Origin: Azonexus sp.
GTDB lineage: Bacteria; Pseudomonadota; Gammaproteobacteria; Burkholderiales; Rhodocyclaceae
NCBI GenBank assembly: GCA_030691385.1
Contig: JAUYEI010000128.1
Location: forward strand, 1 to 64,000
Direction of reading: 5' to 3'
Length of the DNA: 64,000 nt
Shown in pieces: positions 2,686 to 56,123 of this stretch. Each line of letters begins with the position of its first letter. Position 1 is the stretch's first letter. Both the position numbers and the translations under genes were made by a program. The notes beneath the pieces are model-generated. The model did no database searches. It worked only from the letters and a program-made list of their open reading frames with translations, and was not told the DNA's origin.

Positions 2686-3023
2686 AATGATGGCTCAAGG
2701 TCGTGTGGAAAACGTGACGCCCAACGTTGTAGGTAAAGGGCGCTGCGCGGCGCTTCATCGCGCAGCGTCCAGCGACCGGAGGGAGCGGCCTTGACCGCAG
2801 TGTTAGAAGGGTTTGCCGGGAAAGCGGTAGTGCAAGCGAACGGCTTGCAGTCGAGACCGCCGGTGGCAAACGGAAAATGCTTTGCAGCCGGGAAAGCCCC
2901 AAAACCCGAGGATTTTGATTTTGGCTGAAATTTCCGGTTGACCGTAGCAACGCCGAAAACGCTGAGCCGACGGGCCAAAACAGGGACAGAGCCAAGAGCA
3001 AGCGACGGGCGGCGAAGTGACAT
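2682..3023 (-). CDS. Possible mini-cassette ORF reading through attC (copy 1)
   Basis: From the ATG at 3023 an open frame of 113 codons crosses the 229-bp cassette body and the whole attC at 2719-2808, ending in an ATGA overlap with the glycosyltransferase start. It begins MSLRRPSLALGSVPVLARR and includes the translated dispersed repeat (VATVNRKFQPKSK). The homologous ORF at 4441-4758 keeps the frame, but many of the differences change amino acids. An alternative frame encodes a signal-peptide-like stretch (LLLALSLFWPVGSAFS). It may be non-coding, and coding status is unproven. Confidence 0.3.
   Translation of the reverse strand: MSLRRPSLALGSVPVLARRLSVFGVATVNRKFQPKSKSSGFGAFPAAKHFPFATGGLDCKPFACTTAFPANPSNTAVKAAPSGRWTLRDEAPRSALYLQRWASRFPHDLEPSL
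2719..2808 (-). other. attC recombination site
   Basis: GCCCAAC at 2719-2725 and GTTAGAA at 2802-2808 bound a 90-bp site whose stem includes GGGCGCTGCGCGGCGCTTCA and CGACCGGAGGGAGCGGCC. It is nearly identical to the site at 4454-4543. Confidence 0.9.
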
Positions 3024-3044
3024 GAGAAACCGGAGCCTTCTAAC
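2802..3044 (-). repeat. Duplicated 243-bp mini-cassette, copy 1
   Basis: This segment, from GTTAGAA to TTCTAAC, is the same length as 4537-4779 and differs from it at only around twenty positions by eye, mostly clustered in the 2825-2865 equivalent. Both copies carry one dispersed 42-bp repeat at the same internal position. The pair looks like a cassette duplication within the array. Confidence 0.85.
2910..2950 (-). repeat. Dispersed 42-bp repeat (copy in mini-cassette 1)
   Basis: The minus strand reads CTACGGTCAACCGGAAATTT then CAGCCAAAATCAAAATCC, a near-consensus copy of the element found throughout the window. Its presence inside a mobile cassette means it can be moved by the integrase. 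Confidence 0.85.
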
Positions 3045-3124
3045 GTGTAGATGACCGGCGCTGCGCGGCTTTATCGCGCAGCGTCCAGCGACTGAAAGGA
3101 GCGAGGTTGAGCGCCATGTTAAGT
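3038..3124 (-). other. attC recombination site
   Basis: TTCTAAC at 3038-3044 and GTTAAGT at 3118-3124 bound an 87-bp imperfect palindrome with GGCGCTGCGCGGCTTTATCG. The stop codon of the NERD-domain gene (3119) is in its right core. Confidence 0.88.
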
Positions 3125-3877
3125 GACTTTTTGGATCGTGCGGCATTTTGGAAAAGCGGAGCAGCCCCAAAATTTGCCACCCGCGAGTTCTCCGCTTTTT
3201 GTTGTGCGCAGAACCATTTGTTCACCGCATTTTGGACATGACCTTGGCGCATGGGGATCTAAGCGGCATTGAATATTCTGCACATGCTCACGATTTGTGG
3301 CGAGCGACGGAGCCATTCTGCCGGTGCTAATTGCAGTGGACACTGCCTCAACTTCGGAGAGCGATAGAAAAACTTCGGTCTTTGACTTGATGTAAGAAAT
3401 ATATCCACCCGCGTAAGTAACGTTTGCCGGCATCTTTGTCTTGAACTCGCTCCCGCCGACAAAGACAACGACAGAGTGAATTTTCTCCGGCGGAAGATTT
3501 AGCAGGGCTTCCAATGCTTTGACATGCTTATAGTTTTGGCGAAGCGGGTTTTGAAATTTGTTGGTCTTCTTGAAAATCCTCTGTGTCCACATGGGCTGAT
3601 GCTCATCGCCAAAAATCCAGCCACTGTAGTTTTTTGTTTCAACGACGAACAAACCAAATCGTGATACGAAGATGTGATCGATTTGCGTCGTTCCATCGGG
3701 TGTTTTAAGCGTGACATTGTGAATCGGTCGGTACTCCTTTGGGTCAAGGAGGAACTTTGCAGACAACCTGACCAACCATTCGCCAAAGACCCCCTTAAAC
3801 CATGGAGTTTTAACGACAGCGACTGCAATGAGTAGAGGAAATATCCACCACAGTTGAACAAAGAGTGATTTGAGCAT
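3119..3877 (-). CDS. NERD-domain protein with C-terminal topoisomerase-type zinc finger (integron cassette)
   Basis: This 252-residue protein starts with a hydrophobic segment at about residues 5-23. A nuclease-related (NERD) domain follows, with FGEWLV at 31-36, IDHIF at 66-70 and FGLFVVETKNYSGWIFG at 74-90; the D/E-T-K pattern resembles the PD-(D/E)XK-like active site. The C-terminus has a C4 zinc ribbon of the topoisomerase I type (CPKCGEQM ... GGKFWGCSAFPKC). The combination suggests DNA or RNA processing at the membrane, but no substrate is known. It is AT-richer than the chromosome, fitting horizontal origin. Confidence 0.85.
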   Translation of the reverse strand: MLKSLFVQLWWIFPLLIAVAVVKTPWFKGVFGEWLVRLSAKFLLDPKEYRPIHNVTLKTPDGTTQIDHIFVSRFGLFVVETKNYSGWIFGDEHQPMWTQRIFKKTNKFQNPLRQNYKHVKALEALLNLPPEKIHSVVVFVGGSEFKTKMPANVTYAGGYISYIKSKTEVFLSLSEVEAVSTAISTGRMAPSLATNREHVQNIQCRLDPHAPRSCPKCGEQMVLRTTKSGELAGGKFWGCSAFPKCRTIQKVT

Positions 3878-3904
3878 GGATGTATATACCTGCTGAAGTT
3901 ACCG

Positions 3905-3968
3905 TGCTAGGTCAGTGGACGGCGGACAGCGAAGCTGGCCGACGGTCCGCTGGACCGGAATGTTGGGC
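3905..3968 (-). other. Atypical attC site
   Basis: A GTTGGGC core lies at 3962-3968, preceded by an imperfect palindrome (GTCAGTGGACGGCGGACAGC ... GACGGTCCGCTGGAC). It differs from the other attC sites and has no clear YYYAAC box on its left side, so its left limit is uncertain. Its position between two cassette genes supports the call. Confidence 0.5.
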
Positions 3969-4011
3969 GTCGCTGCTGCCGAAAGGATATTCATGACTTT
4001 CTGGTTCCTGC

Positions 4012-4437
4012 TCATGGTAGTGGAACGACAATGGACTCCTGCAAGCGTTCGAGGCGCCACGAACTTAGGAGCCGAGAAACAATAACTTGAACATTCTGGC
4101 TGTGCTGGCGGGCGCGCTGCGGCGTTGCCGGTCGCTTGCAGGGAATGACCATGCGGCGCGACCGGCGCCTTGCATCGCATCCCGCCAGCGCACCCCTATT
4201 TGTCCAACTTGTTATTTCTCGGCTCCTTAGTCCATTTGCTGTACCCACAACGCGAATAGCTCCTTTGTCCAAGCCTTCCCAGGCAAAGGCAATCTCGATT
4301 TCGAATTCTTCGCCGCCGTAGTGGACTGCAATTTGTGCTGCTGGAGCCCCAACAAGCGCTGCAAGTTCAGCGGGTGGAACTGTGCGCCACTTTTCTAATT
4401 CGTTCGCAAGTGCCGAATATGCGTGAGCTCGATGCAT
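4012..4437 (-). CDS. Cassette hypothetical protein interrupted by a palindromic element
   Basis: The ORF has 141 codons. Residues 1-75 look like an ordinary soluble domain (LANELEKWRTVPPAELAALV, then AVHYGGEEFEIEIAFAWEGL), rich in acidic and beta-strand-like segments. From about residue 76 the reading frame runs through a long inverted repeat (4064-4230) that encodes an arginine-rich, unnatural-looking stretch before ending ESIVVPLP. The original protein was probably shorter or had a different C-terminus. The family was not recognised. Confidence 0.55.
   Translation of the reverse strand: MHRAHAYSALANELEKWRTVPPAELAALVGAPAAQIAVHYGGEEFEIEIAFAWEGLDKGAIRVVGTANGLRSREITSWTNRGALAGCDARRRSRRMVIPCKRPATPQRARQHSQNVQVIVSRLLSSWRLERLQESIVVPLP
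4064..4230. repeat. 167-bp cruciform-like inverted repeat inside a cassette gene
   Basis: Outer arms are CTTAGGAGCCGAGAAA (4064-4079) and TTTCTCGGCTCCTTAG (4215-4230), one mismatch. Inner arms continue the symmetry: GTGCTGGCGGG with CCCGCCAGCGCAC, and CCGGTCGC with GCGACCGG. The whole segment could fold into one long hairpin and interrupts the otherwise ordinary cassette ORF. Confidence 0.7.
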
Positions 4438-4440
4438 GGG

Positions 4441-4758
4441 TTAGACCTTAGACGCCCAACGTTGTAGGTAAGGGGCGCTGCGCGGAGCTTTATCGCGCAG
4501 CGTCCAGCGACCGGAGGGAGCGGCCTTGACCGCAGTGTTAGAAGGGTTTGCCGGGAAAGCGGCGGTGCAAACGAACTGCTTGCAGCCGCGAGCGCTGGCG
4601 GCAAACGGAAAATGCCTGGCAGCCGGGAAAAGCCCAAAACCCGAGGGTTTTGATTTTGGCTGAAATTTCCGGTTGACCGTAGCAACGCCGAAAACGCTGA
4701 GCCGACGGGCCAAAACAGGCACAGAGCCAAGAGCAAGCGACGGGCGGCGAAGTGACAT
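4441..4758 (-). CDS. Possible mini-cassette ORF reading through attC (copy 2)
   Basis: This 105-codon ORF from the ATG at 4758 is homologous to the one at 2682-3023 (same MSLRRPSLALGSVPVLARR start, same VNRKFQPKSK segment from the dispersed repeat). Its C-terminal third is encoded by the attC site. As the cassette nearest attI it should be the best expressed of the array. Coding status is doubtful for the same reasons as copy 1. Confidence 0.3.
   Translation of the reverse strand: MSLRRPSLALGSVPVLARRLSVFGVATVNRKFQPKSKPSGFGLFPAARHFPFAASARGCKQFVCTAAFPANPSNTAVKAAPSGRWTLRDKAPRSAPYLQRWASKV
4454..4543 (-). other. attC recombination site
   Basis: GCCCAAC at 4454-4460 and GTTAGAA at 4537-4543 enclose a 90-bp palindromic site with GGGCGCTGCGCGGAGCTTTA. 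It is almost identical to the site at 2719-2808. Confidence 0.9.
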
Positions 4759-4779
4759 GAGAAACCAGAACCTTCTAAC
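4537..4779 (-). repeat. Duplicated 243-bp mini-cassette, copy 2 (attI-proximal)
   Basis: This is the second copy of the 243-bp unit at 2802-3044. It lies directly next to the integrase-side attachment site, so it is the most recently inserted cassette if insertion at attI is the rule. Confidence 0.85.
4645..4685 (-). repeat. Dispersed 42-bp repeat (copy in mini-cassette 2)
   Basis: The minus strand reads CTACGGTCAACCGGAAATTT then CAGCCAAAATCAAAACC. It occupies the same position as the copy in mini-cassette 1, so it predates the duplication. Confidence 0.85.
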
Positions 4780-4885
4780 GAATCAGTAGACACCCCGGCG
4801 GGTGTCTACTTCCCGCCAGCGTGGTGTATAAAAACAAAAATATCCTGATAACATTTTGATTTTTAATTCCTCATTGGAAACTGCA
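4773..4885. other. Integron attI region and likely integrase/cassette promoters
   Basis: The first cassette ends at TTCTAAC (4773-4779), whose complement GTTAGAA is an attI/attC core. The next 106 bases to the integrase start hold a perfect hairpin (4785-4810) and a very AT-rich stretch (GTATAAAAACAAAAATATCC). Divergent promoters for intI and the cassettes are expected here. I could not fix -35/-10 boxes with confidence and saw no clear CTG-N10-CAG LexA site. Confidence 0.65.
4785..4810. repeat. Perfect 11-bp-arm hairpin next to attI
   Basis: The sequence AGTAGACACCC-CGGC-GGGTGTCTACT is a perfect inverted repeat with a 4-base loop, starting 6 bases from the attI core. It has no T-run on either side, so it does not look like an intrinsic terminator. 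Confidence 0.8.
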
Positions 4886-5869
4886 ATGTCTGGCGAACTG
4901 TCTTCTGCACCACAGCCACCAAAATTGCTTGATCAGGTGCGGAACCGGATTCGGGTCAAGCATTACAGCATACGCACTGAAACGCAATATCTGAACTGGA
5001 TAAGACGTTTCATTTTGTTTCATGACAAGCGGCATCCGCGCGAGATGGGTGCGGTTGAGGTTGAGGCGTTTTTGACGCATCTGGCCGTCAAAGGCCGGGT
5101 GGCGGCTTCGACGCAGAATCAGGCGCTGTCGGCTTTGCTTTTCCTGTATAGGGAAGTGCTCGGGATCAATTTGCCGTGGCTCAATGGCGTGGTTCGCGCC
5201 AAGCAGCCGCAGCGTTTGCCGGTGGTGTTGACGCGCCAGGAGGTGAGCGGGTTGCTCGATCGCATGAATGGGCTGCACGGCATGATGGCGCGTTTGTTGT
5301 ACGGCACCGGCATGCGTTTGATGGAGTGCGTGCGGCTGCGCGTCAAGGATGTCGAATTCGAGCGGGCGGAGATTGTGGTGCGCGATGGCAAGGGGGCCAA
5401 GGATCGGGTGACGATGCTGCCGCAATCCTTGAACGGGCCCTTGCGGGATCATTTGCGGTGGCGCCGCCAGCTGTTTGACGACGACAAGGCCAAGGGGCGG
5501 GCAGCGGTGTATTTGCCCCATGCGCTGGATAGAAAGTATCCGAACGCCGAGACGGAGTGGGCCTGGCCGTATGTTTTTCCGACTGCCGGTTTTTCGGCGG
5601 ATCCGCGCAGCGGTGATGAGCGGCGTCATCATGTCGATGAAAAGGCCTTGCAGCGGGCGGTCAAGAAGGCGGTGCAGGCGAGCGGCATTGCCAAGCTGGC
5701 GACGCCGCATACTTTTCGCCATTCGTTTGCGACGCATTTGCTGCAGTCCGGTTACGATATCCGTACCGTGCAGGAATTGCTGGGCCACGCCGACGTGGCC
5801 ACTACAATGATTTACACACATGTGTTGAACAAGGGCGGGCGCGGCGTTGTTTCGCCGCTGGACGTTTAG
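4886..5869 (+). CDS. intI: Integron integrase (tyrosine recombinase IntI)
   Basis: This is a tyrosine recombinase with the IntI-specific insertion. I use the ATG at 4886 (327 residues, [20 protein letters not shown]); the ORF track begins at a TTG 10 codons earlier. The N-terminal SAM-like domain includes [18 protein letters not shown]. The catalytic set is visible: Arg in [13 protein letters not shown], Lys in [10 protein letters not shown], His-x-x-Arg in [12 protein letters not shown], and [15 protein letters not shown] with the nucleophilic Tyr. The segment [20 protein letters not shown] between Lys and HxxR is the extra domain that distinguishes integron integrases. The gene appears intact and diverges from the cassettes, the usual arrangement. 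Confidence 0.96.
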
Positions 5870-5875
5870 AAACTT

Positions 5876-8800
5876 ATGAAAAATCAGAACGCCGGACAAC
5901 GGCGCGAAATTCCCGCGGCTGCGGGTTTGACCAGCGACGCGCGTCGCCTGCGCAGCCTGCAACGCGATGTACTGCGGTCAACCGGAAATGATCGCGAAAA
6001 ACTGAATGCCGATCTGGCGGCCTTGCTGGCCCGCTCGCAGGCGGCGGTCATCGAGCGTCGTGCCCGCTTGCCGAAGCCGGAATTCCAGAGCGATCTGCCG
6101 GTCAACGAGCGACGGGCCGATATCGCCGAGTTGATCGAGAAGAATCAGGTGGTCATCGTCTGCGGCGAAACCGGCTCGGGCAAGACCACACAGTTGCCGA
6201 AGATTTGCCTCGATCTCGGCCTTGGCGCCCGTGGCCTGATCGGCCACACCCAGCCGCGCCGGCTGGCCGCTCGTTCGGTCGCGACGCGGCTGGCGCAGGA
6301 ATTGAAAACGCAGGTTGGCGCTGGTGTCGGCGTCAAGATCCGTTTCCAGGATCGGTCGTCCCCGGAGAGTTGGGTCAAGCTCATGACTGACGGCATCCTG
6401 CTTGCCGAGTCGCAGTCCGATCCCTATCTGAATGCCTACGAGGCGATCATCATCGACGAGGCGCACGAGCGCAGCCTCAACATCGATTTCCTGCTCGGCT
6501 ATCTCAAGCAGTTGCTGGCCAAGCGGCCGGATTTGAAGGTCATCATCACCTCGGCGACCATCGATGCCGAGCGCTTCTCGCAGCATTTCAACGGCGCGCC
6601 GGTGATCGAAGTGTCCGGCCGGCTCTATCCGGTCGAAGTGCGTTACCGGCCAGTCGAGGATCTCGACAAGAAGGACGACGAACGCGATCTCTACGACGCC
6701 ATCGTCGATGCCGCCGACGAAGTGGCGCGGCTGGGCAGCGGCGACATCCTCGTCTTCCTGCCCGGTGAGCGGGAAATCCGCGAGGCGGCGGAGGCCTTGA
6801 GAAAGCACGCCCTGGCCCGGCCGGGGCTGTCTTCCGCCCATGCGCCGGAAATCCTGCCGCTCTTTTCCCGCCTGTCAGCTGGCGATCAGGACCGCATCTT
6901 CAAGCCCTCGGGCGGCCAGCGGCGCATCGTGCTGGCGACCAATGTGGCCGAAACTTCGCTCACCGTGCCGGGCATTCGCTACGTCATCGACACCGGGCTG
7001 GCCCGGGTCAAGCGTTATTCCTACCGCAACAAGGTCGAGCAGTTGCAGATCGAAAAAGTGTCTCAGGCGGCGGCCCGGCAGCGAGCGGGGCGTTGCGGCC
7101 GCGTGGCGGCGGGCGTCTGCATCCGGCTGTACGACGAACTCGATTTTAACGCCCGGCCGCCGTTCACCGATCCGGAAATCCTCCGTTCATCGCTGGCCGG
7201 CGTCATCCTGCGCATGAAGTCGCTGCGCCTGACCGATGTCGAGAGCTTCCCCTTCATCGAACCGCCGCCAGCCAAGGCCATCGCCGACGGCTACGCGCTG
7301 TTGCAGGAGCTCGGCGCGCTCGACGACGACAATGTGCTGACGCCGATCGGTGCGTCGCTCGCCAAGCTGCCCCTCGATCCGCGCATCGGCCGCATGCTTG
7401 TTGCGGCGCGCGACCTCGGTTGTTTGAAGGAAGTCATGGTCATCGCCGCCGGCCTCTCGGCGCAGGACCCGCGCGAACGGCCGCAGGATAGACAGCAGGC
7501 GGCAGATGAAAAGCACAAATTGTTTGCCGACGAGAAATCGGAATTCCTCGGTTGGTGGAAGTTGTGGAACTGGTTCCAGAACGCCGTCGAACACAAGAAA
7601 TCGAACAAGCAGCTGGTCGACAACTGCCACGCCCATTTCCTCTCCTACCTGCGCCTGCGCGAGTGGCGCGAGGTGCATGGGCAGTTGCATGCGATGGTGG
7701 CGGAGTTGGGTTGGGTGCGTGAGACTGGCGAGACCCATCCCCACCCCAACCCTCCCCTTGTCCCTGGGGATACCGGCCCTTCGGGCCATAAAGGGGAGGG
7801 AGTGAAGGCCAAGCCCCTCCCCCTTCAAGGGGGAGGAGAGCGCCCCCTCCCCTTCAAGGGGAGGGCTGGGGTGGGGATGGGTGAAACACCCCCCGCCACC
7901 TACGACGCCATCCACCAGGCGCTGCTCGCCGGCCTGCTCGGCAACCTCGGCTGCAAGGCCGACGAGTCCGGTTTCTACCTCGGCGCGCGGGGCATCCGTT
8001 ACCTGATCCATCCCTCGTCACCGCTGCAAAAAAAGGCCGGCAAGTGGATCATGGCGGCCGAGATCACCGAGACGACGCGCCTCTTCGGCCGCTGCGTCGC
8101 CCGCATCGAACCGGACTGGCTGGAGAAAGTGGGCGCTCACCTGATCAAGCGCCAGTATTTTGACGCCCACTGGGAAAAGAAGTCCATGCAGGTCTCCGGC
8201 TGGGAGCGGACAACGCTCTACGGCGTGGTCATCAACCCGAAACGGCGCATCCATTACGGCCCGATGGCGCCGGCCGAATCGCGGGAAATCTTCATCCGCC
8301 AGGGCCTGGTCAGCGAGGAAATCGACGAGGCTTTTGCCAAACGCTGGCCCTTCTTTCAGCACAACCAGAAGTTGATCCGCGAGATCGAACACCTCGAACA
8401 CAAACAGCGCCGGCAGGATGTGCTGGTCGATGACGAACTGATTTTCGCCTTCTACGACTCGATCATCCCGGAAGGCATCCACAACGGCGCGACCTTCGAC
8501 CACTGGCGCAAGGAAGCCGAGCGCGAGACGCCGAAGCTGCTCTACCTGTCGAAAGACGACCTCATGCGTCATTCGGCGGCCGGCGTGACGACCGAGGCTT
8601 TCCCGCATCACCTCAAGGTCGGCGGCATTGATTACCCGCTGAGCTACCACTTCGAGCCGGGTTCGCCGCGCGATGGCGTGACGCTGACCCTGCCGCTGGC
8701 GCAGCTCAACCAGATTCCCGTGTTGCGCATGGAATGGCTGGTGCCGGGGCTGCTCAAGGAAAAGCTCGTGCAGCTCATCAAGACGCTGCCGCAGAAAATT

Positions 8801-9982
8801 CGGGCGAAAGTGGTGCCGGTGCCGGAATTTGTCGAAGAATTCATGTCGACCGTGGCCGGCAACGAAAAGAAGATGAATCAGGGCCTGATCACGCCGCTCA
8901 TCGACCACATTCTCGAAGCGCGCGGCCTCAATGCGCGTGGCTGGGCCGTGACGCCGGATGCCTTCCGGCCCGACGCGCTGCCCGCCCATTTTTCGATGAA
9001 CTACAAGCTCATCGACGAACATGGTCGCCAGCTCGACATGAACCGCAGCCTCGTCGCCCTGCGCGCCGAGTGGGGCCGTCAGGCCAAGGATGAGTTTGCC
9101 GAGTTGCACGAAACGCCGTCCGAATTCACCAATCTGACCGACTGGACTTTCGGCGAATTGCCCGAGTTGATGGAAGTGCCGGTCGCCGGCCAGACCGTGC
9201 TCGGCTACCCGGGGCTGACCGACGAGGGGGAAACCGTCAGTCTCAAGGTTTTCGACTCCGCCGAGGAGGCCGCAGCCGCCCATCGCGCCGGCCTGCTGCG
9301 CCTGTTCATGCTGCAGTTCCGCGATCAGGTGAAGTATTTCGACAAGAACATCCCCGGCCTGAGCCAGATGGCGATGCAATACATGGCGCTGGGCAGCGCC
9401 GACGACCTCAAGAACCAGATCGTCGCCCTGACTTTCGAGCGCGCCTGCCTGACCGAGCCGCTGCCGACGACGCCGAATGCCTTCAAGAGCCGTTGCGGCG
9501 ACAGCAAGGCGCGGCTCGGGCTGATCATGCAGGAAGTCTGCCGGCTGGTCGGCACCGTGCTGAGCGAATGGCAGACGGTCATCAAGAAGCTGCCGGCCTT
9601 CAAGGCGCACGCCGCGGCGGTGGCCGACATCGAGGCGCAACTGAAGCGGCTGATGGGCAGGAATTTCCTGATCGATACGCCCTTCGAGCGTTTGCAACAC
9701 TACCCGCGCTACTTCAAGGCTATCGTCGTCCGCCTCGACAAGCTCAAGGCCAACCCGGGGCGCGATGCGCAATTGATGGTCGAATACACGCCGCTATGGA
9801 CCAACTACGAACGCCGCGCCATCCAGCTCGCCAAGCTCGGCACGCTCGACCCGCAGGTCGAGCAATTCCGCTGGCTGCTCGAAGAATTGCGCGTCGGCCT
9901 CTACGCGCAGGAATTGCGGACGCCGGTGCCGGTTTCATCCAAACGTTTACAGAAACAGTGGGAAGGAATCAAGAATGGGTGA
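5876..9982 (+). CDS. hrpA: ATP-dependent RNA helicase HrpA (with in-frame repeat insertion)
   Basis: This 1368-residue DEAH-box helicase has Walker A GETGSGKTTQ at 97-106, DEAHERS near 194, a SAT motif (IITSATIDAERF), motif V/VI in NVAETSLTVPGIRYV and QRAGRCGR, then helicase-associated and DUF3418-type C-terminal regions. HrpA acts in mRNA processing and translation-related RNA remodelling. Residues about 619-669 (HPHPNPPLVPG ... AGVGMGE) come from a 150-bp palindromic repeat inserted in frame, which probably adds an exposed loop. A possible degenerate 42-bp repeat lies near residue 36. It starts 6 bp after intI, marking the chromosomal flank of the integron. Confidence 0.95.
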   Translation: MKNQNAGQRREIPAAAGLTSDARRLRSLQRDVLRSTGNDREKLNADLAALLARSQAAVIERRARLPKPEFQSDLPVNERRADIAELIEKNQVVIVCGETGSGKTTQLPKICLDLGLGARGLIGHTQPRRLAARSVATRLAQELKTQVGAGVGVKIRFQDRSSPESWVKLMTDGILLAESQSDPYLNAYEAIIIDEAHERSLNIDFLLGYLKQLLAKRPDLKVIITSATIDAERFSQHFNGAPVIEVSGRLYPVEVRYRPVEDLDKKDDERDLYDAIVDAADEVARLGSGDILVFLPGEREIREAAEALRKHALARPGLSSAHAPEILPLFSRLSAGDQDRIFKPSGGQRRIVLATNVAETSLTVPGIRYVIDTGLARVKRYSYRNKVEQLQIEKVSQAAARQRAGRCGRVAAGVCIRLYDELDFNARPPFTDPEILRSSLAGVILRMKSLRLTDVESFPFIEPPPAKAIADGYALLQELGALDDDNVLTPIGASLAKLPLDPRIGRMLVAARDLGCLKEVMVIAAGLSAQDPRERPQDRQQAADEKHKLFADEKSEFLGWWKLWNWFQNAVEHKKSNKQLVDNCHAHFLSYLRLREWREVHGQLHAMVAELGWVRETGETHPHPNPPLVPGDTGPSGHKGEGVKAKPLPLQGGGERPLPFKGRAGVGMGETPPATYDAIHQALLAGLLGNLGCKADESGFYLGARGIRYLIHPSSPLQKKAGKWIMAAEITETTRLFGRCVARIEPDWLEKVGAHLIKRQYFDAHWEKKSMQVSGWERTTLYGVVINPKRRIHYGPMAPAESREIFIRQGLVSEEIDEAFAKRWPFFQHNQKLIREIEHLEHKQRRQDVLVDDELIFAFYDSIIPEGIHNGATFDHWRKEAERETPKLLYLSKDDLMRHSAAGVTTEAFPHHLKVGGIDYPLSYHFEPGSPRDGVTLTLPLAQLNQIPVLRMEWLVPGLLKEKLVQLIKTLPQKIRAKVVPVPEFVEEFMSTVAGNEKKMNQGLITPLIDHILEARGLNARGWAVTPDAFRPDALPAHFSMNYKLIDEHGRQLDMNRSLVALRAEWGRQAKDEFAELHETPSEFTNLTDWTFGELPELMEVPVAGQTVLGYPGLTDEGETVSLKVFDSAEEAAAAHRAGLLRLFMLQFRDQVKYFDKNIPGLSQMAMQYMALGSADDLKNQIVALTFERACLTEPLPTTPNAFKSRCGDSKARLGLIMQEVCRLVGTVLSEWQTVIKKLPAFKAHAAAVADIEAQLKRLMGRNFLIDTPFERLQHYPRYFKAIVVRLDKLKANPGRDAQLMVEYTPLWTNYERRAIQLAKLGTLDPQVEQFRWLLEELRVGLYAQELRTPVPVSSKRLQKQWEGIKNG
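5971..6010 (+). repeat. Possible degenerate 42-bp dispersed repeat in hrpA
   Basis: GCGGTCAACCGGAAATGATC followed by GCGAAAAACTGAATGCC resembles the tatC copy (ACGGTGAACCCGGAAAATGACGC...). It is translated as LRSTGNDREKL. The similarity is partial and could be chance. Confidence 0.4.
7733..7882. repeat. 150-bp palindromic repeat inserted in hrpA
   Basis: The 28-bp outer arms ACCCATCCCCACCCCAACCC... (7733-7760) and ...GGGGTGGGGATGGGT (7855-7882) are complementary with one mismatch. Inside are further hairpins built of CCCTCCCC / GGGGAGGG and CCCTTCAAGGGG units. The length is a multiple of three and there is no stop in the hrpA frame. Confidence 0.9.
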
Positions 9983-11482: not shown

Positions 11483-11525
11483 GACTTCCACGGTCAACCC
11501 GAAAAAACGGCCAAAATTGAAATCC
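11483..11525 (+). repeat. Dispersed 42-bp repeat (downstream of the CinA-like gene)
   Basis: GACTTCCACGGTCAACCCGAAAAAACGGCC followed by AAAATTGAAATCC is close to the consensus. It lies between the CinA-like stop codon and the terminator. Confidence 0.85.
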
Positions 11526-25637: not shown

Positions 25638-27142
25638 GGCGCGACGTTCCGGACGATTTCGACGGCAAACTGCCGGGGCTGGGTTTCTTCATCCAGCCCG
25701 TCGCCGCCGCGCAGGGCTCGCCCTGATTCGATGTCGAAGGGGCGTTGCAGGACGTTGATGGTGTTGGCGGGGTCGGCGCGCAGCGCGTCGACAAATTGAT
25801 CGAAGACGGCCAGGGTTTGCCGGGTCGTCGCCCGCTCAAGATGGATGGAGCCGCGGACGGTGGTGATTTCCGGCTCGCGGCCAGGCACTCCCACGGTCAA
25901 CCGGAAATTTTGCCCAAATTTCCAATCGATGCCTTCGAGAACGATGGCCGGCATGCGGTCGAGAACGTGGCTGATCATGCGATAGCTCGGTGTCGGCTGG
26001 CGTTGCTGGGCGAGCAGCTCGCCGTAGCGGCCGGTCACGCGGCGCAGTGTGTTGTTGTCCATGCCGAGCTGCGGAAAGGTCGCCGAGATTTCCTGGTAGC
26101 GCCGGCTGAAATCGGCTTCGCTGGCCGCCAGCGCCCGGGCCTCGGCGCGCAGGTCACTGGCCTTGTAGGTTTCCTTGGCGGCGAACAGGACGCCGCCGAG
26201 CAGGGCGATCAGTCCGGCCGCGAAGAGGCCGTGGCGGATTTGCGCCAGGCGGAAATGGTGGCGATGTGTTTCGTCGGCAAACTGCTGGGCGGGCGGCGCC
26301 GTTGCCAGCAGGTGCAGGAAGAGCTGGTCGCTGCGGTTGTCGGCGGGCAGTGTGTGCAACTTGAGCTTGTGCGCGGCGACATGGCTGTCGATCAGCGTGA
26401 AGTTCAGCTTGCTGTGTTCCGGGCAGGCCTTTTCGATGGACGGAATGGTCAGCGGATGGGCGACGATGAAAGCGGGCAGGCCTTCGTCGCGCCCGATCAG
26501 GCGCTGACCGATCAGGTATTGGTGCAGTTTGCCCGCTTCGGCGGCAAAGGCGCTGGCGATGCCGGCGATGCTGCTGTCGGTGAGCGGCGCCATACGCGAG
26601 AAATGGGCGTGGCCGTCAACCAGGTAGGTTTCGCGGATCGAGTGATCCTGCAGGGTGAGCAGCAGGCAGCGGCCGCTGTCCTGTCCCAGCTTTTTGAGCA
26701 ACTGGCCGCCCAGTTGGGCCACCGTGTAAATGCCGGCCAGCGGCACCTCGGCATCGCCGATCCGGCGCAGCCATGGCTCGAAATGGGCCGGGTTGGTCAG
26801 GGCGGAGAGCAGCAGCTTTTCGTTCTTGCGCTGGCTTTTTTCGTAGCCCAGAGACACCGCCGCGGCCAGTGGTGTGCCGAGAAAATGCTGGCCGATCTTG
26901 CGGGTAATCAGTGTTTGCCGGTCGCCGCCCTGCAGGAAAGGGATGGTTTCCAGGGCATGGCCTTCCTCGGCGACATTGGCCAGCAGCGAGAACTGGCTGC
27001 TGCTGTGCTCCCTGAGATATTCGGCGAATTGCTGCAGGCCGCCCTCGTCGTTGTCGAACACCCCCTCGGCGCGCAGCTTGCCCTGCTGCCAGGCATGGGC
27101 CGACAGGCGATGCGTGTTGAGATAGAGGAGGCGGCTGCTCAC
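25634..27142 (-). CDS. mshI: MSHA biogenesis MshI-like (PilM/GspL-type) protein
   Basis: This 502-residue protein has an N-terminal actin-like PilM/GspL cytoplasmic region (to about residue 290), a membrane helix (LFAAGLIALLGGVLFAAK at about 305-322), a coiled linker and a periplasmic PilN-like domain. It therefore resembles a PilM-PilN fusion of the MshI/GspL kind. The 42-bp dispersed repeat lies antisense in the periplasmic domain, encoding FGQNFRLTVGVPG. It overlaps mshG and mshJ by 4 bp. Confidence 0.8.
   Translation of the reverse strand: MSSRLLYLNTHRLSAHAWQQGKLRAEGVFDNDEGGLQQFAEYLREHSSSQFSLLANVAEEGHALETIPFLQGGDRQTLITRKIGQHFLGTPLAAAVSLGYEKSQRKNEKLLLSALTNPAHFEPWLRRIGDAEVPLAGIYTVAQLGGQLLKKLGQDSGRCLLLTLQDHSIRETYLVDGHAHFSRMAPLTDSSIAGIASAFAAEAGKLHQYLIGQRLIGRDEGLPAFIVAHPLTIPSIEKACPEHSKLNFTLIDSHVAAHKLKLHTLPADNRSDQLFLHLLATAPPAQQFADETHRHHFRLAQIRHGLFAAGLIALLGGVLFAAKETYKASDLRAEARALAASEADFSRRYQEISATFPQLGMDNNTLRRVTGRYGELLAQQRQPTPSYRMISHVLDRMPAIVLEGIDWKFGQNFRLTVGVPGREPEITTVRGSIHLERATTRQTLAVFDQFVDALRADPANTINVLQRPFDIESGRALRGGDGLDEETQPRQFAVEIVRNVAP
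25887..25928 (+). repeat. Dispersed 42-bp repeat inside the mshI-like gene
   Basis: ACTCCCACGGTCAACCGGAA then ATTTTGCCCAAATTTCCAATCG lies antisense to the gene and in an open frame. The first 20 bases match the consensus exactly. Confidence 0.88.
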
Positions 27143-30059: not shown

Positions 30060-31313
30060 TCAGCGCTGCAGCCCGGGTTGCAACTCGCCCAGACGTTGCT
30101 CGACCTTGTCGCGCGCGAAGCCGGCCGGGCGTCTGGCCGACGCTTCCAGGGCCAGCCGGTAATGCTGGGCAGCGAGGCGCGCTTGGCGCAGGTGATCGAG
30201 GCTGACCGCCAGGTTGAACAGGTAATCGGGGTTGTCGCCATCGGCGGCCACGGCGTTGAAATAGACCTGCTGGGCCTCGGCCCAGCGGGCCTGGCGAGAA
30301 TACAGATTACCGAGCGCAAAATTGAGCGGCGCCGATTCGGGCTGGCTGGAGAGCAGCGACTTCAGGCGGCTTTCTGCGGTGTGCGGATCGGCGTTGGCCG
30401 ACAGGTTGTTGAGGACGGCCGCCTGTGCCGCCGGATCGCTCGGGTTGGCGACCAGCGCCCGCTGGCGCAAACCGTCGGCGTCCGCAGTGCGCCCCTGGCG
30501 ATGAGCGATGGCGGCCAGGGCGAGCAGGGCATCGGTGTTGTTCGGATCGCGTTGCAGCGCCTGTTCGAACTCCCGGCGCGACATTTCGGTTTCGCCGCGT
30601 TGCAGGCTGGCGTGACCACGCGCCAAGTTGGCGTCAGGCTCCGGCTGGGTGCGCGTCAGGCGAATCCGGGGGGCGGCCTCTGTTTCGCCATCGGGCGCGT
30701 ACATCGGTGCCGGGCGCGCCTCGCGTCGCGGGAAAAGCGGGGGCGTGGCCGGTTCGGGAGTGACTCCCACGGTAGACCGGAAAAAAGGGGCAAAATCAGA
30801 AGGCGGGGCGGGCTGCACCGCCGGCGCCGCCCGGGGTGGCGATGGCTGGGCTGGCTGCGTCATCGCCGCTGGTGCGCCAGCGGCCAACGACCCACGGTTC
30901 ATCGCGTTCATCTGATACCAGACATAGCCACCGATGGCGATACCGGCAACGCCGAGCGTGCCCAGTGCTGCCCAGAGCGGCAGCCGCGAAGGTGTCGCAG
31001 CGGCTTGTTTGGCGGCAAAGGCATTGCGCACGGCTTCGCGTTGTTCGGTCGGCCTGGCTTGTGGTGTCTCACTGGCTTGGATAGCGGCCGGGCGGGGCTC
31101 GGGAAGCGCTGACCTGGCCAGTTCGGCGTCGACTGCCGCCAGGTGCGAGGCAAGGTCCGGCAGCGGATTGGCGGCGCCTTTGCCCGGTTCGGATGTGATC
31201 GGTTCCAGGCTGAGCAGGTCGCTGGCTGTTGGCAACAGCCCACCCTGCGAGTTGCGGGCCGATTCCTGCTTGGCATTTTCTGCCCGCTTCAGGGCATCCA
31301 TCAGCAGGCTCAT
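30060..31313 (-). CDS. mshN: TPR protein of the pilus operon (MshN-like)
   Basis: This 417-residue protein has the conserved N-terminus MSLLMDALKRAENAKQE, a Pro/Ala-rich region, a single membrane helix (PLWAALGTLGVAGIAIGGYVWY at about 134-155), a second Pro/Ala-rich linker, and TPR repeats from about residue 225 to the end (LARGHASLQRGETEMSRREFEQAL, LLALAAIAHRQGRTADADGLR). A 42-bp dispersed repeat lies antisense in the linker, giving FAPFFRSTVGVTPEP. It probably scaffolds the secretin or assembly complex. It lies between mshL and mshE. Confidence 0.8.
   Translation of the reverse strand: MSLLMDALKRAENAKQESARNSQGGLLPTASDLLSLEPITSEPGKGAANPLPDLASHLAAVDAELARSALPEPRPAAIQASETPQARPTEQREAVRNAFAAKQAAATPSRLPLWAALGTLGVAGIAIGGYVWYQMNAMNRGSLAAGAPAAMTQPAQPSPPRAAPAVQPAPPSDFAPFFRSTVGVTPEPATPPLFPRREARPAPMYAPDGETEAAPRIRLTRTQPEPDANLARGHASLQRGETEMSRREFEQALQRDPNNTDALLALAAIAHRQGRTADADGLRQRALVANPSDPAAQAAVLNNLSANADPHTAESRLKSLLSSQPESAPLNFALGNLYSRQARWAEAQQVYFNAVAADGDNPDYLFNLAVSLDHLRQARLAAQHYRLALEASARRPAGFARDKVEQRLGELQPGLQR
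30763..30803 (+). repeat. Dispersed 42-bp repeat inside the mshN-like gene
   Basis: ACTCCCACGGTAGACCGGAA then AAAAGGGGCAAAATCAGAAGG lies in the disordered linker of the TPR protein, antisense to the gene. One two-base change (TCAA to TAGA) departs from the core. Confidence 0.85.
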
Positions 31314-39564: not shown

Positions 39565-39842
39565 TCGAACGAGAAATGGGGCGCCTTGTTGTCAAGGTGC
39601 CGTTGGTGATGGCGAATGCGCGCGGCCTGCTCGAAGCAGGCCGTTCTGCTTTGCAGCCAGGTGAGCAGATATTTGATTTTTCCGAAGTGACCGAGGCCGA
39701 CTCGTCGGCGCTCGCCGTGATGCTCGGCTGGTTGCGCGCCGCAGCACTCTCACGGTCAACCGTAAAATTTGCCCAAATTCCAAATGGCGTCGTTGCACTG
39801 GCCGAACTGTACGGCGTGACCGACCTGCTGCCCCTCGCCTGA
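39561..39842 (+). CDS. mlaB: STAS-domain protein MlaB
   Basis: This 93-residue STAS-domain protein has the FSEVTEADSSALAVMLGWLRAA core and the C-terminal VVALAELYGVTDLLPLA, as in MlaB, the cytoplasmic accessory of MlaF. The strand between these (SRSTVKFAQIPNG) is encoded by a copy of the 42-bp dispersed repeat, yet the protein keeps the normal family length. It ends 10 bp before the next ABC ATPase gene. Confidence 0.88.
   Translation: MIEREMGRLVVKVPLVMANARGLLEAGRSALQPGEQIFDFSEVTEADSSALAVMLGWLRAAALSRSTVKFAQIPNGVVALAELYGVTDLLPLA
39746..39787 (+). repeat. Dispersed 42-bp repeat inside mlaB
   Basis: ACTCTCACGGTCAACCGTAA then AATTTGCCCAAATTCCAAATGG lies in sense orientation within a conserved STAS strand. 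It is a near-consensus copy. Confidence 0.88.
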
Positions 39843-42874: not shown

Positions 42875-43038
42875 AAAAAAGGCTTGGCGTATTCCAAATG
42901 CTGGCCCATACTCCGAGCCTCGGGATTTCCAGGCAGTGTTTTGTTCCTGCGCCGTACCACGGTTTGTCAGCTCTCCTCGGTCTTGGTTCTCGTGTTTTTG
43001 TGGCGCAAGCCCGTATTTTTATTTTAGGAAGCTATCAA

Positions 43039-43245
43039 ATGGCAAACGGTACCGTTAAGTGGTTCAACGACTCCAAGGGTTTTGGTTTCATCTCCCCGTC
43101 CGAAGGTGGTGAAGACCTCTTCGCTCACTTCTCTGCAATTCAAGGCAACGGTTTCAAGACCCTGGCCGAAAACCAGAAAGTGACGTTCGACGTCGTGAAC
43201 GGCCCGAAGGGCAAGCAGGCTGCAAACATCCGCCCGGCTGAATAA
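43039..43245 (+). CDS. Cold-shock domain protein (CspA family)
   Basis: This 68-residue protein starts at the ATG at 43039 after AGGAAGC; the track ORF extends upstream. It is a single OB-fold cold-shock domain with [32 protein letters not shown], carrying RNP1 (KGFGFI) and RNP2 (DLFAHF). It binds single-stranded RNA/DNA as an RNA chaperone. A leader of up to 223 bp from murA, containing a perfect hairpin, fits the long structured 5' UTRs known for csp genes. A strong terminator follows. Confidence 0.96.
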
Positions 43246-43268
43246 GTCCGCGGAGTCGCCTGACTCAA

Positions 43269-43300
43269 AGAAAGCCCGGCTTGCCGGGCTTTCTGCTTTT
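43269..43300 (+). terminator. Intrinsic terminator after the cold-shock gene
   Basis: AGAAAGCCCGGC-TT-GCCGGGCTTTCT followed by GCTTTT is a perfect 12-bp stem with a T-rich tail, 24 bp beyond the stop codon. Confidence 0.92.
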
Positions 43301-44007: not shown

Positions 44008-45309
44008 ATGGTCGCGATCAAACGTCTTTCTACGGTCGACGCCGATTTCACGGCAAAAATGGATGCCCTGCTCGCTTTTGAGGCGGCGCAGGATGAAGGC
44101 ATCGAACGCACCGTCATCGGCATCCTGTCCGATGTGAAGGCGCGCGGCGATGCGGCCGTCGTCGAGTACAGCAACAAGTTCGACCGGCTGTCGGTCGGCG
44201 GCATGGCCGATCTGGAGTTGTCGAAGGCCGAGATGCAGAAGGCGCTCGACAGCCTGCCGGCGGAACAGCGCCAGGCCCTGGAAGCGGCGGCGCAGCGCAT
44301 TCGCGTTTATCACGAGAAGCAGCAACTGGAAGGCTGGTCCTACACCGAAGCCGACGGCACCATGCTCGGCCAGATGATTACGCCACTCGACCGCGTCGGC
44401 CTCTACGTGCCGGGCGGCAAGGCGGCTTATCCGTCGTCCGTGCTGATGAACGCGATTCCGGCCAAGGTCGCCGGCGTCAAGGATCTGGTCATGGTCGTCC
44501 CGACCCCGGGCGGCGAGCACAATCAGCTGGTGCTGGCGGCGGCCTGTCTGGCCGGCGTCGACCGCGTGTTCACCATCGGTGGCGCGCAGGCGGTTGGCGC
44601 GCTGGCTTACGGTACGGCAACCATTCCGCAGGTAGACAAGATCGTCGGCCCTGGAAACGCCTATGTTGCCTGCGCCAAGCGTCGGGTGTTCGGCATCGTC
44701 GGCATCGACATGATCGCCGGCCCGTCGGAAATCCTCGTTGTGGCAGATGGCTCCGGGAATCCGGACTGGGTGGCGATGGATCTTTTCTCGCAGGCCGAGC
44801 ACGATGAACTGGCGCAGTCGATCCTGATCTGTACCGATGCCGGCTATATCGAACAGGTGCAGGCGAGCATCGAAAAGTTGCTGCCGGCCATGCCGCGCCG
44901 TGAAGTGATTGAAACCTCGCTGACCAATCGTGGCGCTTTCATCCTGGTCCGCGACCTTGAAGAGGCGATCGCCATCGCCAATCGCGTGGCGCCGGAACAC
45001 CTCGAATTGGCGCTGGCCGATCCCGATCCGTGGGTCAGCAAGATTCATCATGCCGGCGCCATCTTCATCGGCCACTACACTTCGGAATCGCTGGGCGACT
45101 ACTGTGCCGGCCCGAACCACGTGTTGCCGACTTCCGGGAGTGCGCGTTTCTCGTCGCCGCTCGGCGTCTATGACTTCCAGAAGCGGACCAGCCTGATCAA
45201 GGTGTCGCAGGCCGGGGCGCAGACGCTGGGTCGCATCGCGTCGACGCTGGCACACGGCGAAGGTCTGCTGGCGCACGCCAGGTCGGCCGAATTCCGACTT
45301 CAAAATTGA
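44008..45309 (+). CDS. hisD: Histidinol dehydrogenase HisD
   Basis: This 433-residue enzyme has complete family motifs: [73 protein letters not shown] and [25 protein letters not shown]. It oxidises histidinol to histidine at a zinc site. The last codons and the TGA (LQN*) lie inside a copy of the dispersed 42-bp repeat, so the C-terminus may have been rewritten by the element. Confidence 0.96.
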
Positions 45310-45337
45310 GCGAAATTTCCGGTTCACCGTGGAAGTC
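45296..45337 (-). repeat. Dispersed 42-bp repeat spanning hisD stop and chromate-transporter start
   Basis: The minus strand reads GACTTCCACGGTGAACCGGAAATTTCGC then TCAATTTTGAAGTC. The hisD TGA (45307-45309) and the GTG (45329) that opens the next gene are both within the element. Confidence 0.88.
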
Positions 45338-46767: not shown

Positions 46768-47859
46768 CTAAGCCAGAATGCCTTGCAGGGTTTGCGTCAG
46801 CGCCTGGCATTCGGCGTCGGTGCCGACGGTGATGCGCAGGAACTGGTCGATGCGCGGCAGCTTGAAGTGGCGGACGATGATGCTCTTGTCGCGCAGCGCC
46901 TTGGCCAGTTCGGCCGCGTCGCGCTGCGGGTGGCGGGCGAAGATGAAATTGGCGGCGGAGGGCAGCACTTCGAAACCGAGGCCGCGCAGATCGGTGCTCA
47001 GCGTCTCGCGCGTGGCGATGACGGCACGGCAGCATTGCTCGAAATACGCCTCGTCTTCCATGGCAGCGACGGCGCCGGCGATGGCGAGGCGGTCCAGCGG
47101 ATAGGAGTTGAAGCTGTTCTTGACGCGTTCGAGCGCTTCGATCAGCGCCGGATGGCCGACGGCGAAGCCGACGCGCAGGCCGGCCAGCGAACGCGATTTG
47201 GACAGCGTGTGGACGACGAGCAGGTTGTCGTAGCGGTCGACAAGCGGGATCGCCGTGTCGCCACCGAAATCGACGTAGGCTTCATCGACCACGACGACGA
47301 CATCCGGATTGGCCTTGAGGATCTGCTCGATGGCGGCGAGCCCCAACAGGCGACCGGTTGGCGCGTTCGGGTTGGGGAAGATGATGCCGCCGATTTCATT
47401 TTTGGCGCTTTTTTCCGGTTGACCGTGGAAGTCGTCCGGATTGATCGAAAAGTCCTCAGCCAGCGGCACCGTGCGGAAATCGATGCCGTAGAGGCCGCAA
47501 TACACCGGGTAGAAGCTGTAGGTGATGTCCGGGAACAAGATCGGCGCCTCGTGCTTGAGCAGCGCCAAGAAGACGTGACCGAGCACCTCGTCCGAACCGT
47601 TACCGACGAAGACCTGCTGCGGCGTCACGGCATGCCGTCCGGCCACCGCTGCCTTGAGCAGATCGGCGTTCGGGTCCGGGTAGAGGCGCAGGCGCGCCGC
47701 GTCGTCGCCGAGCTCGGCCTGGATCGCCGCCAGCACCCTGGGCGAGGGCGGAAACGGGTTCTCGTTGGTGTTGAGCTTGATCAGCTTGGCAATCTTGGGC
47801 TGCTCGCCCGGGACGTAGGGGGTGAGGTCGCGGACGACCTGGCTCCAGAAGCGACTCAT
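46768..47859 (-). CDS. hisC: Histidinol-phosphate aminotransferase HisC
   Basis: This 363-residue protein starts at the ATG at 47859 ([21 protein letters not shown]); the track extends 57 codons upstream. It is a PLP fold-I aminotransferase: [49 protein letters not shown] and the Schiff-base lysine in [15 protein letters not shown]. The segment [15 protein letters not shown] just before [11 protein letters not shown] is written by a 42-bp dispersed repeat in sense orientation. The gene is on the opposite strand to the rest of the his cluster, an unusual local inversion. Confidence 0.95.
47391..47432 (-). repeat. Dispersed 42-bp repeat inside hisC
   Basis: The minus strand reads ACTTCCACGGTCAACCGGAA then AAAAGCGCCAAAAATGAAATCG, nearly consensus, in the sense orientation of hisC and in frame ([13 protein letters not shown]). 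Confidence 0.9.
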
Positions 47860-47938
47860 GGGGTTTTCACGGAAGGCGTAAAAGTAGGCCGAAATGGTAT
47901 CATGGCCCTCCGATAAAAGCCTTTTGCAGCCTTCAACC

Positions 47939-48526
47939 ATGCGGCAAGCCGAAATAACTCGCAATACGCTGGAGACGCAGATCACCGTGCGTCTCAACCT
48001 CGATGGCACCGGCCAGGGCAAATTTGCCACCGGCGTCCCCTTTCTTGATCACATGCTCGACCAGATCGCCCGTCATGGCCTGATCGACCTCGATATCGAG
48101 GCTGTCGGCGACCTGCATATCGACGCCCACCACACGGTCGAAGACATCGGCATCACCTTCGGTCAGGCGCTGGCCAAGGCGTGGGGCGACAAGAAGGGGC
48201 TGACCCGTTACGGCCACAGCTACGTGCCGCTCGACGAGGCCCTGTCGCGCGTTGTTATCGACTTGTCCGGGCGTCCGGGGCTGGAACTCAATGTCGAATT
48301 CTCGCGTGCCGTCATCGGATCTTTCGATGTCGACCTCGTCAGCGAATTCTTCCACGGCCTGGTCAACCACGCCGGCGTCACGCTGCACATCGACAACCTG
48401 CGTGGCCAGAATGCCCACCATCAGGCCGAAACCGTCTTCAAGGCCTTCGGTCGCGCCCTGCGCATGGCGGTGACGCCCGACCCGCGCATGGCCGGTACCA
48501 TGCCGTCGACCAAGGGTTCGCTGTGA
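47939..48526 (+). CDS. hisB: Imidazoleglycerol-phosphate dehydratase HisB
   Basis: This 195-residue protein starts at the ATG at 47939 ([26 protein letters not shown]). It is the monofunctional dehydratase with metal-binding [38 protein letters not shown] and [27 protein letters not shown]. It catalyses the sixth step of histidine synthesis. There is no fused phosphatase domain. It starts a new plus-strand run, 79 bp from the divergent hisC. Confidence 0.96.
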
Positions 48527-49966: not shown

Positions 49967-50724
49967 TGCTCGCCAAACGCATCATCCCTTGCCTTGACGT
50001 CACGGCTGGCCGCGTCGTCAAGGGCACCAATTTCGTCGGCCTGCGCGATGCCGGCGATCCGATCGAAATCGCCCGCCGCTACAACGAGCAGGGCGCCGAC
50101 GAGGTGACTTTCCTCGATATCACGGCCTCGAGCGACCAGCGCGACATCATCCTGCACATCGTCGAAGCCTGCGCCGAGCAGGTCTTCATTCCGCTGACCG
50201 TCGGTGGTGGCGTGCGCAAGGTGGAGGACGTCCGTCGTCTGCTCAATGCCGGTGCCGACAAGGTGTCGATGAACACGGCGGCGGTGCAGAATCCCGATCT
50301 CGTTTTCGACGCCTCGAGCAAGGTCGGCTCGCAGTGCATCGTCGTCGCCATCGACGCCAAGCAGGTGGCACCGGGCCAGTGGCACGTCTTTACGCATGGC
50401 GGCCGTAACGACACCGGCCTCGATACGATTGAATGGGCCAAAAAAGTGGCGGCGCTGGGGGCTGGCGAAATCCTGCTGACCAGCATGGATCGCGATGGCA
50501 CCAAGAACGGTTTCGACCTGGCGCTGACCCGTGCCGTCTCCGATGCGGTGAGTATTCCGGTCATCGCCTCGGGCGGCGTCGGCAACCTGCAGCATCTGGC
50601 CGATGGCGTCAGCGAAGGCCGCGCCGATGCGGTGCTGGCCGCCTCGATCTTCCATTTTGGCGAATACACCGTGCGTCAGGCCAAGGAATACATGGCGGCA
50701 CGTGGCATCGAAGTGCGACTCTGA
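49966..50724 (+). CDS. hisF: Imidazole glycerol phosphate synthase cyclase HisF
   Basis: This 252-residue protein starts at the ATG at 49966 ([23 protein letters not shown]). It is a beta-alpha barrel with catalytic Asp residues in IIPCLDV and [18 protein letters not shown], and phosphate loops [14 protein letters not shown] and [14 protein letters not shown]. It joins HisH to make IGP and AICAR. The last two codons and the TGA fall within a dispersed 42-bp repeat. Confidence 0.96.
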
Positions 50725-50759
50725 CGGTCGACCGGAAAAAACGCCCAAAATCGAAATGG
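50718..50759 (+). repeat. Dispersed 42-bp repeat spanning hisF stop and hisI start
   Basis: ACTCTGACGGTCGACCGGAA then AAAACGCCCAAAATCGAAATGG contains the hisF TGA (50722-50724) and the hisI ATG (50756-50758). The 31 bp between the two genes is entirely repeat sequence. Confidence 0.9.
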
Positions 50760-52498: not shown

Positions 52499-53322
52499 GC
52501 GAACCCCAGGAAGACTCCTTCATCTCGCACCTGGTTGAGTTGCGTGATCGCCTGTTGCGCAGCCTGATCGCCATCGCGGTCGTGCTTGGCGCCCTGTGTA
52601 TTTATCCGGGGCCGGGTGAAATTTACGACATCCTTGCCGCACCGTTGACCAATGCCTTGCCGGAAGGCACCAAGATGGTCGCCATCGGCGTCATCACGCC
52701 GTTCATGGTGCCGCTCAAGGTCACGGCGATGGTCGCCTTCGTGCTGGCCTTGCCGTTCATTCTTTATCAGGTCTGGTCCTTCGTGGCGCCGGGTCTTTAT
52801 GCCCACGAAAAGCGTCTGGGCATTCCGCTGATCGTTTCGAGCACTTTCCTGTTCGTCTCGGGCATGGCCTTCTGCTACTTCTTCGTCTTCGGCCAGGTGT
52901 TCAGCTTCATCAACAGTTTCGCGCCGAAGAGTATTACGCCGGCGCCTGACATCGAGGCCTACCTGTCCTTCGTGATGACCATGTTCCTGGCTTTTGGTCT
53001 TTCTTTCCAGGTGCCGGTGGCGCTCGTCATGCTGGTCAAGCTCAACGTCGTGACCGTCGAAAAGCTCAAGGAGTGGCGTTCCTACTTCATCGTCGGCGCC
53101 TTCGTGGTGGCCGCCGTGGTGACGCCGCCCGATGTCGTTTCCCAACTGGCGCTGGCCATCCCGATGTGCCTGCTCTACGAGTTGGGCATCCTGGTGTCGC
53201 GACTGGTGTCGCGTCCGGCACCGGTGGAGGCCACTCCCACGGTGAACCCGGAAAATGACGCAAAAATGGAATCCGAAATGGACAAGGCGGAAGAAGAATT
53301 CCGCAAGCTGCCGGGCCGCTGA
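52495..53322 (+). CDS. tatC: Twin-arginine translocase subunit TatC
   Basis: This 275-residue protein has six membrane helices. The conserved N-terminus [22 protein letters not shown] is followed by [17 protein letters not shown] and [17 protein letters not shown]. It binds twin-arginine signal peptides. The cytoplasmic C-terminal tail from about residue 246 ([14 protein letters not shown]) is written by a 42-bp dispersed repeat in sense orientation. Confidence 0.96.
53233..53274 (+). repeat. Dispersed 42-bp repeat in the 3' end of tatC
   Basis: ACTCCCACGGTGAACCCGGA then AAATGACGCAAAAATGGAATCC lies in frame in the cytoplasmic tail of TatC. It is somewhat diverged in the right half. Confidence 0.82.
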
Positions 53323-56120: not shown

Positions 56121-56123
56121 GAA

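Follow-up and report, generated by a model that had tools for sequence, protein, structure and literature searches.

A dispersed, dialect-forming motif of Azonexus resembles DNA uptake sequences and is also carried by integron cassettes

To our knowledge, DNA uptake sequences (DUS) have so far been known only in the Neisseriaceae and Pasteurellaceae. Hundreds of short copies, some of them in frame inside genes, are also found with Rickettsia palindromic elements (RPE), repetitive extragenic palindromes (REP) and miniature inverted-repeat transposable elements (MITE). The DUS of the Neisseriaceae are 10-13 nt long, have a CTG core and form eight dialects (PMC3630211, PMC12616744), and the uptake signal sequences (USS) of the Pasteurellaceae combine a GCGG core with AT-rich segments reaching 32 nt (PMC12616744). 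Here we analysed a 64,000-nt stretch of Azonexus sp. (contig JAUYEI010000128.1, positions 1 to 64,000; the window), in which two integron cassettes, A and B, share a 41-bp repeat that also lies dispersed through the genome. Based on sequence comparison, we lean towards reading this repeat as a DUS-like motif of the genus that an integron cassette also carries.

The dispersed motif is abundant and sharply bounded. Searched with up to two mismatches, its 17-mer core, TTTCCGGTTGACCGTGG, matched a 3.45-Mb genome 517 times (249 and 268 matches on the two strands), compared with 2 matches for the reversed control. An information profile of 75 copies delimits a 41-bp unit, ATTTCAATTTTGGCC-N-WWW-TTTCCGGTTGACCGTGG-SARTS, with abrupt ends and nothing outside them. 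The 10-mer GGTTGACCGT occurs 45 times in 400 kb of the relative G069, against 1.5 expected, and 28 of the 63 copies there lie outside open reading frames (ORFs), which make up 89% of the DNA by a simple, and hence rough, ORF caller. Such strong over-representation of a short motif in both orientations is what DUS and USS display. Among 150 relatives, the 17-mer counts were 116-519 in ten genomes and 35-38 in two, all of the same genus, and the window's own genome (G000) has 369. Only two single matches were found in 74 genomes of other genera, and the motif showed no clear enrichment in named genomes of Accumulibacter, Propionivibrio and Dechloromonas SB18 that were reached via their integrons. 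No known RNA family was found at the repeat. A replication-strand bias, suggested by an all-plus run in G069, was rejected as an artefact of listing order.

Sister species carry their own versions of the motif, CGGTTGACCGTRG, CGGTCGACCGTRA or GTCGACCGCTR, with 350-520 copies in the richest genomes and background levels elsewhere; the further dialects were detected by k-mer enrichment in genomes poor in the first motif. Counts of the first dialect, GGTTGACCGTRG, are about 450-520 in seven of the relatives, and G000 has 395 copies. The second, CGGTCGACCGTRA, reaches 365 copies in G065 and 360 in G011, compared with 3-10 in genomes of the first dialect, and the third, GTCGACCGCTR, reaches 431 in G040 and 421 in G072 over a background of mostly 10-35. 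When aligned, the three profiles have GTYGACCG preceded by an AT tract of the form ATTTT-GCC; in the palindromic second dialect, AT tracts flank the core on either side. In a tree of hisC, one clade unites nine of the ten first-dialect genomes shown, with G044 outside it, and the third-dialect pair is monophyletic. The dialects therefore share a core and follow lineage, as those of DUS and USS do. Genomes showing none of the three also exist, for example G048. The hisC contig of G064 (G064:C428) falls inside the first-dialect clade and the rest of that assembly lacks the motif, so that this is probably a contaminant contig in a metagenome bin.

The motif is also a constant part of the cassettes. 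The region around A and B forms the beginning of a chromosomal integron, in which the integrase IntI is followed by a leftward cassette array read on the minus strand. The cassettes are units bounded by G^TTRRRY core sites, from which their boundaries were read, each with its own attC and all in an array beside intI; the core of A and B is GTTAGAA, one base off the consensus. The preliminary description of this DNA had reported two 243-bp bodies differing at around twenty bases, with the repeat at matching positions, and this was borne out. The bodies align without gaps at 17 differences (93.0% identity), and the motif sits at equal offset in each, its two copies differing by one edge base only. 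Homology spans the full 319 bp, including attC, and ends at the cassette boundaries.

Using as a query the cassette with the repeat cut out and the flanks joined, we found homologues in 11 of the 77 genomes of the genus, the window's own included; only 22-31-bp scraps matched in 250 genomes of the family outside the genus. Wherever the centre of a homologue has been sequenced, the motif is there in the same position, one 55-bp match at a contig edge being uninformative on motif presence. Homologues lacking the repeat, which the preliminary description had named as the sign of a single late insertion, were looked for in the genus and none was found. Conservation was measured over 17 cassettes from nine genomes, a set picked by requiring 10 core bases, with no homologue dropped for lacking the core. 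The 20-nt core TTTCCGGTTGACCGTAGCAA has a mean major-allele frequency of 98.8%, compared with 68.5% upstream and 76.8% downstream; 16 of its 20 positions are invariant, compared with 13 of 125 in the flanks, and it overlaps the best-conserved windows of the cassette. Variable columns make up 2 of 25 in the motif core and 67 of 194 elsewhere (Fisher p = 0.006). Since the motif is in all centre-sequenced homologues and its core is the best-conserved part, the repeat is integral to the cassette and not a late hitchhiker.

Protein-level selection on the cassette ORF was considered as the cause of this conservation and found to be unsupported. The ORF is open in eight complete cassettes, with one 3-nt indel among them; its variable sites are spread evenly over the codon positions (18, 26 and 25), and the ratio of nonsynonymous to synonymous change (dN/dS) is mostly near 0.9, within a range of about 0.4-2.4. 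All four four-fold sites of the core are invariant, too few for a test on their own. Because the core is conserved and the ORF looks neutral, the constrained element is the DNA motif rather than a peptide.

Judged by gene presence alone, the genus has the apparatus associated with DUS and USS, namely ComEC and a ComP_DUS-family pilin with putative DNA binding; in G000 this minor pilin is encoded within a minor-pilin cluster, on contig C103 at about 4.3-4.7 kb. ComEC is present in 72 of the 77 genus genomes and ComP_DUS (PF16732) in 71, and both are present in all 52 good assemblies. Since they occur with or without the motif, they do not track it, and they prove only that an apparatus could exist; the ComP-family pilin, near-universal in the genus, was discarded as a motif marker because it is uninformative on specificity. 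In G002, comEC is interrupted by a 33.7-kb island, which has zero motif copies where about four would be expected. As a separate observation, two species have a comEC gene divided by about 32-34 kb of other DNA (G002:C33:109525-144033, L310 and L311; G045:C1:2218607-2251879), and the G002 insert starts with a protein that, read by eye from its start, resembles a large serine recombinase. Mobile islands thus seem to target this competence gene.

According to the reading we favour, competent cells would preferentially import motif-bearing DNA, and motif-like alleles would be favoured at recombination; it is this preferential import that is proposed to account for the hundreds of copies. Lineages would then have diverged into motif dialects, and free cassette DNA with the motif would be preferentially taken up by relatives and captured by their integrases. 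Recognition of the motif during uptake, the protein that would read it and its aid to cassette traffic are what we infer. Several observations weigh against this reading. ComEC and ComP_DUS are also present in motif-poor genomes. The copy density of about 0.15 per kb is lower than that of classical DUS or USS, and the motif is longer. Some copies gained 20-40 bp instead of arising by substitution, and several outgroup alignments are unclassifiable. A literature search found no uptake or competence experiment for the genus; it also returned nothing relevant on uptake sequences in the genus or order, nor on integron cassettes with uptake sequences. Additionally, the cassette motif is conserved in hosts that lack its dialect (G008, G026, G041, G071 and G033), where an uptake bias would not explain its retention unless the cassette arrived recently or the motif has a role within it.

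The most serious alternative, although an unlikely one, is that a protein for chromosome organisation, replication, repair or regulation binds the motif, that the dialects reflect the divergence of that protein, and that the cassette copy is there by descent. A long, rigid site with an AT tract and an excess outside genes would suit a DNA-binding protein, and many genomes of the genus are enriched for none of the three dialects yet keep ComEC and the ComP-like pilin. However, such a site does not by itself predict copies in coding genes and on both strands, nor strong conservation in a mobile cassette across hosts without the dialect.

We consider it improbable that we are dealing with a small non-autonomous mobile element of the MITE, REP or RPE kind, which inserts at GGTYGACC-like sites and of which one copy entered the cassette long ago. 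Syntenic stretches of six relatives were compared at motif sites, several outgroup alignments being too divergent to classify, and the origins of the copies are mixed: several are gap-free orthologous conversions and others came with gains of 21-41 bp. The sharp motif ends and the latter gains would suit an insertion. At the hisC site (47412), where the copy is read in frame, relatives without the motif are 21 bp shorter and have the same pre-existing seed, GGTCGACCG, and the motif was apparently gained independently in G035 and G044; net gains at this site and at 50738 are 21-35 bp. However, at 45316 and 39766 the motif or its orthologues align without gaps to outgroups, with 28-31 of 41 bases identical, which argues that they moved towards the consensus by substitution, and neither terminal inverted repeats nor target-site duplications were seen at the copies. 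Moreover, different, related dialects sometimes occupy the same orthologous sites. GTYGACCG is present in the G040 orthologue at 5 of 7 comparable motif sites, compared with 1.8% expected (binomial p ~4e-8, indicative because the sites were hand-picked), as would be expected if dialects replaced one another at fixed sites. Many copies on both strands, a core with an AT tract, lineage dialects, in-place evolution, an intergenic excess and absence from the island together match DUS, and a transposable element would hardly be expected to show them all.

The proposal in the preliminary description that the integron integrase spreads the repeat, which would have jumped into a cassette or arisen from one, is very improbable, and as a route of dispersal we reject it. 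The cassette family invariably carries the motif, and single arrays can contain several of its members (full copies number at least four in G044, four in G071 and two in G033); related cassettes in the arrays of other genomes give an indirect indication only of excision and insertion by IntI. However, the dispersed copies are sharp 41-bp units without attC or cassette flanks, apart from a few longer cassette-like ones (56081 in the window; 2878412 in G044), and substitutions or small indels created several of them in place. Genomes of the second and third dialects have their own versions of the motif and no such cassette was detected in them, which argues against an origin from the cassette. 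The suggested link to a mobile-cassette vehicle therefore stands insofar as a genus-wide cassette family constantly includes the repeat, even in hosts almost without dispersed copies, and fails insofar as the integrase is not the vehicle of its dispersal. That the pair arose merely from one cassette that had recently acquired the repeat and was then duplicated locally has next to no probability and is dismissed: A and B are mutual closest relatives among the cassettes compared (93.0%), but they are nearly as divergent as A and a G033 cassette (91.8% identity), and homologues in 10 other genomes hold the motif in the same position.

Some copies of the family are incomplete. The left part of the G031 partial cassette (L150) is replaced within about 35 bp of the motif, and that of the G063 partial cassette (L146) exactly at TTTCCGG, which suggests recombination or deletion breakpoints near the motif. 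The longer G044 copy (G044:C1 near 2878412; L161) lacks the left cassette half and keeps the motif with about 70 bp of the downstream cassette part, followed by a degenerate second motif.

Table 1. Integron features and motif copies in the window.
Feature	Position	Strand	Basis and remarks
Integron integrase IntI	4856-5869	+	NCBIfam TIGR02249, 490.8 bits (cut-off 265); Pfam PF00589, PF13495; start at ATG ~4886 possible
Presumed attI region, intI to first cassette	4780-4855		Position only
Cassette B, 319 bp, first in array, beside attI/intI	4460-4778	-	Body 4537-4779; core-site boundaries, pairwise comparison
Cassette B ORF, 105 aa including attC read-through	4444-4758	-	No Pfam or NCBIfam match
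41-bp uptake-sequence-like motif in cassette B	4647-4687	+	Motif scan, pairwise comparison
attC of cassette B	4454-4543	-	DNA fold -21.6 kcal/mol, z -2.2
Cassettes 2 and 3, between A and B, without motif	3044-4459	-	ORFs 4012-4437 (no family match) and 3119-3877 (NERD nuclease domain and zinc ribbon)
Cassette A, 319 bp, fourth from integrase	2725-3043	-	Body 2802-3044; core-site boundaries, pairwise comparison
41-bp uptake-sequence-like motif in cassette A	2912-2952	+	Motif scan, pairwise comparison
attC of cassette A, cores GCCCAAC...GTTAGAA, long hairpin	2719-2808	-	Core motifs read from the sequence; DNA fold -21.6 kcal/mol, z -1.8; attC matches in other integron loci
Dispersed copy, apparently intergenic	11483-11523	-	Motif scan
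Dispersed copy in 502-aa ORF	25886-25926	-	Motif scan
Dispersed copy, weaker	30762-30802	-	Motif scan
Dispersed copy	39745-39785 (39766)	-	G069, G053 and G002 orthologues gapless against G040 or G049, 28-29/41 identical
Dispersed copy	45297-45337 (45316)	+	Syntenic alignment; ungapped against G049 (substitution)
Dispersed copy in HisC-like aminotransferase gene (46768-48030, -)	47393-47433	+	Read in frame, 14 residues
Dispersed copy	50717-50757 (50738)	-	~35 bp absent in G002, G074, G049 and G040
Dispersed copy in coding region	53232-53272	-	G040 orthologue has other dialect, GTCGACCGCT
Dispersed copy	56081-56121	+	Upstream flank also cassette-like, ~80% over 64 bp

The coordinates of the array and of the motif copies are collected in Table 1. 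Within the second cassette, a 169-bp element at 4063-4231 has 31-bp imperfect inverted ends (84%) and is possibly a MITE with a TTA target duplication. Beyond the stretch from A to B, the array continues with a glycosyltransferase cassette and an HNH cassette; the former (1402-2685) has EryCIII/UDPGT domains and a weak similarity, far under curated cut-offs, to macrolide- and rifamycin-inactivating glycosyltransferases. Elsewhere in the window, a 1368-aa helicase-like ORF (5876-9982; HrpA-like by eye) contains an in-frame, GC-rich inverted-repeat block at 7733-7882 with 28-bp arms that are 96% complementary, and a cspA thermoregulator RNA (RF01766) lies at 42900-43297. The G+C content of 61% and the relatives of the integrase point to a member of the Rhodocyclaceae close to Dechloromonas or Azonexus.

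The larger finding is a motif that forms dialects and resembles uptake sequences, in a genus outside the Neisseriaceae and Pasteurellaceae. More tentatively, and with doubt slightly outweighing belief, this may be a third bacterial family with sequence-specific uptake, with a long two-part signal and lineage dialects; an integron cassette family would have adopted that signal as its best-conserved segment, and its cassettes would be self-addressed for transformation among relatives, coupling uptake specificity to integron capture. With a third, unrelated case in environmental betaproteobacteria, if true, the ways in which uptake signals originate, switch dialect and isolate species could be tested independently, and it would provide a concrete mechanism for the circulation of chromosomal integron cassettes within a genus. 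Dialect counts are a simple, repeatable genome test.

Compared with known systems, the motif resembles RPE, REP and MITE in its hundreds of short copies, some in frame in genes, but its first dialect has neither a palindrome-based mobile unit nor transposase ends, and several of its copies originated by substitution, with dialect replacement at orthologous sites. The integron is like the chromosomal integron of Dechloromonas aromatica RCB (PMC2426708), with intI, attC-bounded cassettes, and several ORF cassettes besides a small product-less one; in contrast to the cassettes of that integron, the constrained element here is a DNA motif and not an ORF. With the Pasteurellaceae USS (PMC12616744, PMC7811141), the motif shares a short core, AT-rich segments of lower conservation at a distance of about one to two helical turns, and dialects, of which two are known in that family. 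However, the USS segments lie downstream and extend up to 32 nt, whereas here the AT tract is upstream as written, in a 41-bp unit with an unrelated core. As in the Neisseriaceae (PMC3630211), hundreds to thousands of copies lie on both strands, in and between genes, the dialects track phylogeny while keeping a common inner core, and the genomes encode a ComP-family minor pilin. Unlike the contiguous 10-13-nt, CTG-containing DUS, the motif described here is 41 bp long and two-part with the core GTYGACCG, has a several-fold lower density, occurs in a different family and lies within an integron cassette, and its role in uptake is deduced from sequence.

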